NCBI GenBank assembly: GCA_945865695.1
Contig: CAMBFX010000005.1
Span: forward strand, 1-46,719
Source of the DNA: Chryseobacterium gleum
Lineage (GTDB): Bacteria > Bacteroidota > Bacteroidia > Flavobacteriales_D > UBA2798
Length of the DNA: 46,719 nucleotides
Reading direction: 5' to 3'
This document shows positions 19,814 to 37,010 of the stretch, piece after piece. The translations under genes were made by a program, and so were the position numbers. Each line of letters opens with the position of its first letter. The first letter of the stretch is position 1. The notes beneath the pieces are model-generated. The model worked only from the letters and a program-made list of their open reading frames with translations, did not search any database and was not told where the DNA came from.

Positions 19814-20393
19814 CACCGCCAAAATAACGAAGCGCATTTTCACAGGTAAGTTGGCACTTTTTATATAGTTTGGTTTTGCAGAACTAACTATATAAATAAA
19901 AGTAATTATTTTTTTGGTAAATCGGTTTTCGGACAGCTGATTTTAAAAAAATTACTTACGTGATTTTTGATCGTCTTAGCAAAAATCAAGTAGACTTGAA
20001 TCATTTGCACGCTGGCATAGGTTGTTATTTATATTCTTAGATCTCAATTAAGAGTTTGAAATTATGTTTCCAGCGTTAAAAGCATCTAAATATGACCCCC
20101 CACCATTCGAAAAGAAACGTCTGAAATATAATGAGTATTCGCCCCACGCATACTCCCTTCTATATACAGAAATTTCATAATTACCATTATGAATAGCATT
20201 CACAAAATGTAGGTTATGTTCTAATTCCATGTAATTCATGACTAATTCAAATTTACTTTTCCCATGTAGCAGTATTCGTGGTCAGCGATCTGTCCACCAG
20301 GACGGAATGTTGAACGCGAGCGGCGACCTACCACATTGCAGGACTACTGCTATAAGGCATAGCGGCTGTTATGCACTGGCAATCATTTGGGTT

Positions 20394-22780: not shown

Positions 22781-23087
22781 GTTTGTTAAATTTATTAATT
22801 TATTACAAACACTCCCTAAATAATCATTATATTTAGTCCACTTTATGCTGAAGATTTACAGTCGAAGCAAACACAGCAAGGTGATATTATTTTTAATAAA
22901 GAGAAAGCTCTAGTCATAATTAAATCATCTTTAAACCTAATTAAGACTAGTTGATGTCAAACTTTAAATATATTTATGGAATTCTTTATAGATATTCCAA
23001 ATCTATATAAAAGCTTGTCATTAAAAATGTGAATTGAAAGTTCTATTTTATCAAATTCCATTATCTTCTTATTTATTCTAATTTCCC

Positions 23088-25493: not shown

Positions 25494-25970
25494 TCAATAA
25501 GCGTATTTCACAGCGTGCCAAATTGCCACAAATTCTATGATTGTCACATAACCGTCAATTGAAAACTGAATATCACTAGAATAACTTGAGTTGCCAGTAA
25601 ATACTTTTCCATCTTTGATGGTTGCTATAACATCGCTGCTATAATTTGATGTACCCTTGTAAACTTTGCCATCTTTAATTGTCATAACAATATCGCTGCT
25701 ATAATTTGATGTTCCCTTGTAAACTTTGCCATCTGATACATTGTAAAGAACATCACTTGAATAATTGCTTGTCCCTTTGTAAACTTGGCTTCCGTTTATA
25801 TTACAAATTACATCCGATGAATAGTTTGATGTTTTTTTGTACACCTTGCTATTATGGAGATTACAAATTACATCACTTGAATAATTACTTGTCCCTTTAA
25901 AGACTTTTGTTTGTGCATTCATAGTGAAAGAAGTTAGCATAATTGTTGCCAGTAAAATTAAATTTTTCAT
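25494..25970 (-). CDS. Secreted 20-aa-repeat protein (VYKGTSNYSSDVI repeats)
   Basis: Signal peptide plus six imperfect KVYKGTSNYSSDVI-type repeats of 20 aa. Confidence 0.75.
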   Translation of the reverse strand: MKNLILLATIMLTSFTMNAQTKVFKGTSNYSSDVICNLHNSKVYKKTSNYSSDVICNINGSQVYKGTSNYSSDVLYNVSDGKVYKGTSNYSSDIVMTIKDGKVYKGTSNYSSDVIATIKDGKVFTGNSSYSSDIQFSIDGYVTIIEFVAIWHAVKYAY

Positions 25971-26361
25971 TTTTACAAATTTTGAATTTTGTTCCTACTC
26001 ATATGGCTTTTCGGTGTCGCCCTGTTTTTTAAGTGGTCGCTAGTCTCCAACTTTTTTTTAATATTATTTCTTATCAGTCAAACGCAATTTCAAGTATTGT
26101 CAAAATTGGATGGTGCTCTTGTTTCTGTCATTCCTTTGTGTCGTTTTTTAAACTTGCCTATAAATTTACACAAGTACCATAAGTCCTCTTAGCGCTCAAA
26201 ATAGTGTGCTAACCGCACTTTTGGTAAGTTTAGCTAAAAAAATTTAAAAACCTATTTTATGAAGTAAATTATTCCTTCTAAAAAACATTTTTTCTCAAGA
26301 TCAATTGAAAAATTCAGAGAATTCTCAAGATAACCTGAAATATCCTGCAAATCTATTAGGC

Positions 26362-26993
26362 TCATTTAATACTCCCCCACTCCTCTCTCCCCTTTAAAAT
26401 CGCCAAAAACTTTTTCATATTCACTTTTTCTTTAAAACGCCATTTAGCAAAATAGGTGGTTGCTGCCTTTTCTAATCCGTTTTTTTCGAGGTCGTGGCGC
26501 ATAGCACGGGTTTGTTTTTTGTAGGATCGATCAATATTCAGCTTTTCGTTAACCTTGAGGCCAGTAACCACCATGCGCTGCTTTCAGGTACGGAAAAAAA
26601 CTTTCTTTTCGTTTAATTGGAAACCAAATTAGAACAGGAACTTTTTGATGACATTATGAAAGACCTTGTATTTTTGGGTAAATCCAGGCTCTTTAGACGA
26701 AAAAGAAAGGTCGTCGGCATATCGGGATAGGTAATATTAAAAAGATTGCAGAAATCGCTTATTTTGGCATCAAGTGAGAGAAAAATAAAATTACTAAGTA
26801 TGGGCGAGGTTGGAGCTCCTTGCGGTAAACGATCTTCGTAGGTGCATAAACGTCACAGCGAAGCAGCCATCGGCTTTGGGAAAGAAAAAGGTTCTTCGAG
26901 AAAAACTTGTCTTGTTTGCAAGGTATTGATAGATGGAAAAAAATCTTCGATATCTACGGTGATTAAATATGCTTTGCCAACATACGCTCCCAT
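26362..26993 (-). pseudogene. Retron-type reverse transcriptase, N-terminally truncated and frameshifted
   Basis: Across frames: GKAYLITVDIEDFFPSI, LCTYEDRLPQGAPTSPILSNFIFLSLDAKISDFCNLFNITY, RYADDLSFSS, then MVVTGLKVNEKLNIDRSYKKQTRAMRHDLEKNG. Confidence 0.85.
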
Positions 26994-27065
26994 GCTTGTT
27001 AAATTTATTACAAACACTCCCTAAATAATCATTATATTTAGTGCACTTTATGTTGAAGATTTACA
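26984..27065 (-). mobile_element. Decayed right end of the same IS family
   Basis: acgctcccatgcttgttaaatttatta...gtgcactttatgttgaagatttaca aligns to 22771-22860 with a 10-nt gap and few mismatches. Confidence 0.85.
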
Positions 27066-32309: not shown

Positions 32310-32930
32310 TCACAACCATTTCATCCATGTTCTCTGGTCGATGAAAGGCACATTTTTTTCTTTACACATTAACATAGTATGCCCAGTTCCTCCTTGTTGT
32401 GGCTTTTTTAAATCATCGTAAAAAATTGCAAAATAGGCAGGTAAAATACCAGCTTTAGTGCCTATTACCATTACAGAATCGCGTAGTATATAAGCTCCTT
32501 TTGATTTTAAACGCTTATCCGCCCCCTTCATATACTCTACCACTAAACCTTTAACTTCTCTATTTTTCTGAGCGGTATAAACAACATCAGGTTCCTGGAT
32601 TAAATTTATACTATCGAGAGGAATTGTTTGATAAGCATTATTGTTAGCAATTTTATGACCTGAATACGGAGTTATTACCTGCAACTTTTTAGAATTTATT
32701 TTTATTACTCCTTCCGAAAAAAGCTGGTCTGCTCCATCAGCATTACCACTTCTGAAAATAATGTTGTTTGTATTTTTGGTAAGCAATTCGCCTAACCGAA
32801 CAAGTTTAGGCTTATCAGCTTCCATCACATCCCTTTTTCCTGCTAAAAGAACAATTGAGTTTTCTTCATCCAGCAGTCGAATAAAATCAACAAGTGAAAG
32901 ATTTTCAGGATTTTTAATGAGTTTTCTCAT
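32310..32930 (-). CDS. SLOG/DprA-like nucleotide-binding Rossmann protein (putative)
   Basis: IVLLAGKRDVMEADKPKLVRLGELLTKNTNNIIFRSGNADGADQLFSEGV. Confidence 0.55.
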   Translation of the reverse strand: MRKLIKNPENLSLVDFIRLLDEENSIVLLAGKRDVMEADKPKLVRLGELLTKNTNNIIFRSGNADGADQLFSEGVIKINSKKLQVITPYSGHKIANNNAYQTIPLDSINLIQEPDVVYTAQKNREVKGLVVEYMKGADKRLKSKGAYILRDSVMVIGTKAGILPAYFAIFYDDLKKPQQGGTGHTMLMCKEKNVPFIDQRTWMKWL

Positions 32931-34000: not shown

Positions 34001-35782
34001 CTAAGCCACTAACTTTAAGTTTTCAGCAGCTGCCCATAACTTAACGATTTCGTACTCTTCGTTTATATACATTCGGTTGTATGATCCCCTGATTTGATAA
34101 ATTACATTATCGCGCACTTCAATTGTAAGTAATCGTTTTTCTTCTTTCTCTTCACCTAAGGTTCGCAAAGAGAATATAGCACATCTGTTTTTCCTACAGT
34201 GATTCAAATAACTCAAAACGCAATGATGTAGCATTTTACCTTCTAAATACAGTTCGTATACATTTAAAAGCTGTTTAATTTCAAAATTCTGTTCTGAATT
34301 TTTAATTTTAAATTCCTTTATTTTAGCACGTTTAAATTTAATTTTCCCGTATTTTAAAATAGTCGTCTCTTCGGCAAGCTTATCATGCCATTCATATACT
34401 TCTGCCATCAAATTACTAATTGTCTTTCCTTTCAGATTTAATTCTATTTTTCTTTGTATTACATGGTAATCAATGTAGTCAAAAATAGTGCTTACATCTG
34501 TTGCTTCAAGTCCCTTCATATACAATAATGTTATTGTAGATATCCAGAATTCTAAATTCTGCAGACTGCCAAAATTACCTTTCCTTAACAATCCCAAGGC
34601 CACCGCATGCGACACTTTGTTTGCTCTTAATTGTGCATACAGTAAATATTCATTAGAGTCAATTTGATGAAGTTGTTGAATTTGCTTCATTTCAATTGAC
34701 GTTAGAAAACCCCGAAACAGATGAGTAAAAATATGAGATGCTTTTTTGGTTAATTTAAATGGCAAATTGGGATAAGTACACAGATTATTTCCCTTTAAAA
34801 CATGACTCAGCCAAAGATCATCGCGATGACTAAAAAGTATGGTAGGGAAATGAAATTTCCTAAAGAAACTCATAATCATCATATCTTCCTTATTACAACC
34901 GTCAAAATCGGAATACTCCTTAATAAAAAACAGTTGATTACTAAAAAAATCAGGGTTCTGATGATAACAAAAGTAAGTTAAGTCTAAAGTTTTAGCCGGC
35001 GTATCAAAAATCAATTGCGTAGAGAATTTTGATTTAAGCATATTGAAGAAAGGTTTTGATTGGAGCATATTCGCAAATGGTTCGATATTCCTGCCTGATA
35101 GAAGTAAGTTAAAAGTTTTCATTATCGCAATTATTTTTTCTTCATTGTTTAGTTCCGGGCACTGATTTAAAATAAAATCAATCCATTCACACATTTGCGC
35201 GTATACTTTTCTGTTATGATCATTGCTGTTTTCTAAATTTGATGAAGGAGAAATGGGAGGAAGTTGGCATACCAAATATATTAGATTCGAAATATAGGGT
35301 AACGATTTTTCGTTCCATTCTAACTCAGAAAAGAGAACAGATAAAATTTTTATATGACATGCGTTATTTATATTATTTCGAGTACAACACAAAACAATTT
35401 TGTTCCAAAACTCAACAGAATCTTTAGTAAGACGAATCTTACGAGCAAGGCAGACGAGGTTATCTATAAATTGAGGGTGATTTTTCCAACACTGGTAGAT
35501 CAACATTGCGGATTCCATATTCAAAATCGGAATCTTTGGACTGTCAACTATTTTTTGATACTCATTCAAGAAATCAGAAATGTTTATTGCACGTTCTTGT
35601 TTTAGTGAACGTAAGAGACTAATTCTATATTTTTCCGCAGGATTATTAAAATAATATCCTACGATTTCAGAATTTCCATGAACTCGTAACTCCATCGCCA
35701 CTTCACATTTTAAAACATTTCTTTTCGTTGACAAAACCTTTACGGTGATGTTGCTGTTTTGAGAATTCGTTTTTCGTTTCAT
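34001..35782 (-). CDS. PcfJ-like domain protein
   Basis: LYLEGKMLHHCVLSYLNHCRKNRCAIFSLRTLGEEKEEKRLLTIEVRDNVIYQIRGSYNR...IVKLWAAAENL. Confidence 0.75.
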   Translation of the reverse strand: MKRKTNSQNSNITVKVLSTKRNVLKCEVAMELRVHGNSEIVGYYFNNPAEKYRISLLRSLKQERAINISDFLNEYQKIVDSPKIPILNMESAMLIYQCWKNHPQFIDNLVCLARKIRLTKDSVEFWNKIVLCCTRNNINNACHIKILSVLFSELEWNEKSLPYISNLIYLVCQLPPISPSSNLENSNDHNRKVYAQMCEWIDFILNQCPELNNEEKIIAIMKTFNLLLSGRNIEPFANMLQSKPFFNMLKSKFSTQLIFDTPAKTLDLTYFCYHQNPDFFSNQLFFIKEYSDFDGCNKEDMMIMSFFRKFHFPTILFSHRDDLWLSHVLKGNNLCTYPNLPFKLTKKASHIFTHLFRGFLTSIEMKQIQQLHQIDSNEYLLYAQLRANKVSHAVALGLLRKGNFGSLQNLEFWISTITLLYMKGLEATDVSTIFDYIDYHVIQRKIELNLKGKTISNLMAEVYEWHDKLAEETTILKYGKIKFKRAKIKEFKIKNSEQNFEIKQLLNVYELYLEGKMLHHCVLSYLNHCRKNRCAIFSLRTLGEEKEEKRLLTIEVRDNVIYQIRGSYNRMYINEEYEIVKLWAAAENLKLVA

Positions 35783-35997
35783 AATGATAGGTTTAAAATT
35801 GTTAGTGAATTTGATTCAATTGTACAAGAAACATTATTTCAATTACGTCTGATTTATTTTTTTGATGATGCAATTGGTTTAGAAATATTTCAGTAGAAAG
35901 ATTATTTACATAATTGTTTTCTAAAACTAGTATCACGTTATTTTGACTCTTTAAGCAAATAACTGAAGATTCAATAATTCAAAAAAGTACTGTCAGT

Positions 35998-36283
35998 GTT
36001 GGATAGGTTAAAGATACATCCGAGTTAATTTCTCTAGGATGACCCTTCCCGTTTTTTCAGGAACTAGCATCCTTTTACTCGGCTTGCTAGGTTCCTTTTC
36101 GACATTTCAGTCGAAGAGTTTTCAGATTGGTAGTAGGGTTAAATTAAGGAAGCGGCAAGCCTAAGGCTTGGATCGCCCCTATATCCTTTGTTTACGCGGT
36201 GTAGGTATATTTCCGCTCTTAGTTGGAGTATGGTGATGGATTTTGCCATCGTAACGTTATTCAACCCTGTTTAACGTTCCAAC
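35998..36283. ncRNA. Candidate structured non-coding RNA (strand not resolved)
   Basis: GTTGG(atag)GTTAAA at 35998-36012 pairs with TTTAAC(gtt)CCAAC at 36270-36283; internal hairpins at 36060-36095, 36098-36115, 36152-36176, 36196-36216, 36235-36250; no supporting ORF. Confidence 0.5.
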
Positions 36284-36835
36284 TATTAAATATTGTGTAC
36301 CTCTAATTGTGTATTACAATTATTGTATTGAGATTGGTATTGCAGCTATAACTTATTTCTTCTCTTCCATTAATAATTGTTCACTAAATCAATACTAATT
36401 TTCTTGTTCATTCTAATGAAAAGAATAGAAAACGCTACATATACATAGTGCAAAGACCTAAACAGTTTACATTAGTCATAAGGCATAGTCAATCAACTAC
36501 AAGAAGCATCTTGCATGTTTCTAGAAATGGGAGATAAAATTATTGGATAATAATAATTTTAGTGTATTTTAATTAATGCAAAGTTATATTGTGATGTTGC
36601 GAATTTTCCGCATAGCCCAATAATTTGCAATCAATGATTAATTAATATATCGTATTATTTTGATGGGGAATTAAATATAATGCTAACATAAATAATAAAT
36701 TTTATTTTACCAAATATTTGCAAAAATAATTTGCTTATCAATTATACTTCTGAAAAGAAATGAAGCAAAATAAAAATAGAAAAAAGAATATTAGATATAT
36801 TTTAGAATATGCTAAATGGCAACAAACTCCTCCAT

Positions 36836-37010
36836 TGCAGCGTAACCATCAATTATGAGTAGAAAGTATTTCGAATAATTTGAATCATAATTATACACTC
36901 TTCCTTCCAAAATTGTTGCAAGCACATCACTGCTATAGTTGAATGTATCCATCTAAATTATCCCCGACTTAATTGTCCTTAAAATGTCACTTTTAAAGGA
37001 GAAGTTACTG
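36836..37010 (-). pseudogene. Remnant of the NYSSDV-repeat protein family
   Basis: Reverse frame reads FNYSSDVLATILEGRVYNYDSNYSKYFLLIIDGYAAMEEFVA, matching 25494-25970. Confidence 0.7.

Follow-up and report, generated by a model that had tools for sequence, protein, structure and literature searches.

A GC-rich, strongly folded element as a candidate orphan structured RNA in accessory DNA of a Bacteroidota genome

We describe a 286-base element (positions 35998-36283) that stands out as a GC-rich island. It lies in a Bacteroidota genome, in a gap of 1,605 bp flanked by two seldom shared genes, within a window of 46,719 nucleotides that is the whole stretch of Chryseobacterium gleum DNA analysed here. 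Our results support a structured element without a match in Rfam, and the reading that we tentatively prefer is that it specifies a free-standing RNA, structured and noncoding, that belongs to an accessory region, is encoded on the minus strand and ends near a T6 tract. Such an orphan structured RNA is plausible and its minus-strand orientation probable, and we present it as a candidate rather than as a finding.

An earlier note on this DNA had pointed to a more GC-rich stretch lacking a supported open reading frame in an AT-rich gap of about 1.6 kb, and our measurements agree with it on these points. With a GC content of 0.427 the element stands out from the rest of the gap (0.237 on one side, 0.264 on the other), and a search for the most GC-rich stretch of 286 bases in the gap places its start at exactly position 35998. 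The element holds no open reading frame of more than 50 codons, counted from stop to stop, its longer frames have no Pfam match, and a scan for tandem repeats found none. This lack of coding signal and the presence of a GC island in an AT-rich genome both count in favour of a free-standing RNA. The logic behind the lead is established, since structured RNAs have been found as GC-rich long intergenic regions in AT-rich genomes by the GC-IGR method (PMC6429828), and by that logic the element ranks as a candidate. Like the GC-IGR candidates, it is long, GC-rich, strongly folded and non-coding in an AT-rich genome; the described classes, in contrast, have homologues with covariation, whereas the element has no homologue in the genomes searched.

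The fold is better than that of dinucleotide shuffles on both strands. On the plus strand it reaches -86.3 kcal/mol (z -2.99), with 2 of 200 shuffles equally good, and on the minus strand -81.8 kcal/mol (z -4.63), a value matched by none of 200; with the flanks included, the minus-strand z is -4.12. Among 158 windows of the contig that were tested, the minus-strand element was the most extreme (z -4.94), a result that argues for the RNA. Counting against it, the limits of the element had been set by eye on the basis of its stems: windows off these hand-picked boundaries gave z values of -2 to -3.3, and a grid window 25 nt away reached only -3.33. Another gap window without an Rfam match (22781-23066, minus strand) also folds strongly, with a z of -3.86. 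Given the off-boundary values and this second gap, we consider the folding evidence to be moderate.

Every one of the five hairpins listed in the earlier note occurs in the sequence at the place it had given. They comprise GGAACTAGCA (36060-36069) with TGCTAGGTTCC (36085-36095), a hairpin at 36060-36095 with one bulged base and pair probabilities of 0.46-0.99 on the plus and 0.58-0.99 on the minus strand; TTCGAC-atttca-GTCGAA at 36098-36115 (0.79-1.0); GCGgCAAGCC-taa-GGCTTGgatCGC at 36152-36176 (0.80-0.98 for the six inner pairs); a weak hairpin at 36196-36216, between GCGG at 36196 and CCGC at 36213, that both strands form in their minimum-energy folds; and GATGG-attttg-CCATC at 36235-36250 (0.98-1.0). 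A further hairpin, CATCC-GAG / CTC-GGATG at 36017-36041, was missing from that list; its CATCC/GGATG part has pair probabilities of 0.91-0.99 on both strands, and it rivals the long-range pairings. The arms of the terminal stem, GTTGG-x-GTTAAA and TTTAAC-x-CCAAC, are present as well (35998-36012 and 36270-36283). Their outer part, the closing stem GTTGGA 35998-36003 / TCCAAC 36278-36283, pairs with a probability of 0.89-1.0 on the minus and 0.69-0.75 on the plus strand, and their inner part, GTTAAA 36007-36012 / TTTAAC 36270-36275, with 0.58-0.70 on the plus and 0.06-0.27 on the minus strand. Because a two-part terminal stem (6+6) of the same form and span is present in 50% of dinucleotide-shuffled gaps, the "closed long-range stem" that headed the earlier description was an over-reading, and this chance-level feature weighs against the RNA.

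The complementarity of AGGATG (36036-36041) and CATCCT (36068-36073), previously suggested to form an alternative pairing or pseudoknot, is indeed present and extends further. Just outside it, CCGAGT (36020-36025) is complementary to ACTCGG (36077-36082), which sits in the loop of the hairpin at 36060-36095, and so lengthens the original pairing, although this extension has a probability of 0.01 in the nested ensemble. Four two-part complementarities lie inside the element, CCGAGT/ACTCGG among them, a number reached in 1% of shuffles. The two adjoining complementarities make a pseudoknot or a switch possible.

The strand on which the element would act is suggested by a 10-bp junction stem (36135-36144 / 36259-36268), which has a pair probability of 0.91-1.0 on the minus strand and at most 0.05 on the plus strand, because an A-C mismatch on the plus strand becomes a G-U pair on the minus strand. 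There its arms at 36135-36143 and 36260-36268 enclose a domain at 36144-36259, and high pair probabilities are seen for the junction stem, for the outer closing stem and for four hairpins. In addition, a T6 tract at 35981-35986, found on the minus strand only and 12 nt past the closing stem, is a possible 3' end. The firm junction and outer stems and the T6 tract count in favour of the RNA, and the modelled folds give a mild preference for the minus over the plus strand, with the inner terminal stem pointing the other way; if the element is an RNA, the minus strand is thus likelier than the plus strand on which it had been written. Weighing against the RNA, a terminator scan called no terminator, T6 tract included, and no promoter of the sigma-70 or the Bacteroidota -7/-33 type stands out against shuffles or background. 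In the arrangement that we propose, the RNA would be transcribed from the minus strand, terminate near the T6 tract and pair its 5' and 3' ends through GUUGGA/UCCAAC. The 10-bp stem would hold a multi-hairpin domain, to be followed by three separate hairpins, and the loop of the hairpin at 36060-36095 could pair with the 3' hairpin at 36017-36041, yielding a pseudoknot or two exchanging states. Such an RNA would not code but act through its fold, with a protein or a second RNA as its binding partner.

Searches of Rfam 15 returned nothing at the gathering cut-off in the element, and relaxing the E value to 10 added only two weak, unrelated matches, both outside it. RNase P RNA and tmRNA resemble the element in length range and in having ends paired to each other. 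As the earlier note had judged, neither matches the element, and both were rejected as its identity, since the genome carries them elsewhere with strong scores (C104:2471-2873, 239 bits, and C47:5326-5723, 110 bits, respectively). Using blastn, we found no relative of the element in 150 relatives, in the two other family members, in 399 genomes of the order or in 348 genomes of the phylum. A covariance model built from the single sequence gave none in 299 relatives either, nor did the plasmids and phages searched or two scans of 85,462 species for exact patterns; the window's own genome is part of these genome counts. Since an exact pattern catches near-identical copies only and three genomes represent the family here, this absence is no proof of uniqueness. 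Short blastn matches in relatives (the best, 40 nt at 83%, in genome G039) were dismissed as chance, because the similarity stops where the match ends and some of them fall within coding regions. The covariance model recovered none of 26 exact 17-mer matches, which were screened with blastn as well; the best of them, on a Lachnospiraceae contig, falls within a phosphatase-like gene. The failure to find a homologue counts against a free-standing RNA. Of the "undescribed structured RNA" put forward earlier, the structure and the lack of an Rfam match therefore stand, while "undescribed RNA" is unproven, with no homologue in the genomes searched. We consider it unlikely that the element represents an undescribed, lineage-restricted class of large (~286 nt) structured RNAs from Bacteroidota accessory regions that form a loop-to-hairpin pseudoknot or switch.

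The genes around the element bear on what else it could be. On one side lies a PcfJ-like gene of 593 aa (34001-35782, minus strand; PF14284, E 1.2e-16), present in 30 of the 399 genomes searched, and the gene flanking the gap at its other end is found in 2 of 100, the own genome being counted each time. In the other two members of the family we found neither gene; both neighbours are patchy, and the surroundings of the element are accessory DNA. The element might be an untranslated minus-strand 5' leader whose exchanging hairpins regulate the PcfJ-like gene, given that the gene lies on the preferred strand, that the start codon lies 216 nt downstream of the element's end on this strand, and that mutually exclusive pairings exist within it. 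However, between the element and the gene lie the T6 tract and a spacer of 24% GC, and nothing similar turned up in the regions upstream of PcfJ-like genes elsewhere, a small number of them truncated by contig ends, which counts against a conserved leader; we regard this explanation as quite unlikely. The least likely of the explanations is that the element works as DNA, either as a mobile element, non-autonomous and with inverted ends, or as a site of transfer or replication, its hairpins functioning in single-stranded DNA. PcfJ proteins owe their name to a conjugative plasmid, a circumstance that speaks for such a role together with the accessory surroundings and the imperfect inverted ends (GTTGGA..GTTAAA). 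Yet the element is present as a single copy in its genome, its end motif is no commoner than a reversed control (359/428 against 365/390), no target-site duplication of 3-11 bp was seen with the ends moved by up to 4 nt, and the neighbour genes scanned encode no relaxase, integrase or transposase. The single copy, the unenriched end motif and the missing target duplication led us to reject a MITE or a family of mobile ends.

Of the alternatives, the one to which we give most room, while still considering it somewhat unlikely, is that the element is what remains of a decayed gene or of imported DNA, GC-rich and foldable by chance. The 1.1 kb beside the element contains no open reading frame of gene length and, as read from its sequence, fits decay; within it, a 46-codon open stretch at 36812-36952 (minus strand) has a weak Bflower_3 match (E 0.0042), no DUF805 RNA near it, and is possibly the remnant of a second Bflower_3 gene. 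A GC content unlike that of the host and the lack of a conserved copy also agree with a remnant, but the longer frames of the element lack a Pfam match and its fold is far above that of shuffles of the same composition. The inverted ends that would close a multi-hairpin RNA recall the a1/a2-like ends of retron msr-msd RNA; a retron was rejected, as no reverse transcriptase domain occurs among the neighbour genes scanned and the adjoining 1.1 kb is devoid of gene-length frames.

Few large structured RNAs are known from bacteria, and their functions are often unusual. If the element were transcribed and conserved in close relatives, it would add a new candidate from a family that has been little sampled. 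As a lone sequence with no relative in the genomes searched, its present value is that of a lead for strain sequencing and RNA-seq.

Other features of the contig were recorded. GC-rich islands occur in other gaps, at 20096-20381 (0.42) and 26710-26995 (0.41), with no Rfam match, and a 206-aa protein at 32310-32930 (minus strand) has a DprA-like PHROG match (phrog_768, E 4.3e-11). A DUF805 RNA (RF03081, 74 bits) lies at 25988-26055 (minus strand), with 18 nt between its end and a downstream Bflower_3 (PF21786) gene at 25494-25970 (minus strand). It is a structured RNA of the same contig and strand as the candidate element, and differs from it in its length of 68 nt, its place directly upstream of a gene and its lack of any sequence or model match to the element; the gene that it precedes encodes a 6-fold beta flower protein.
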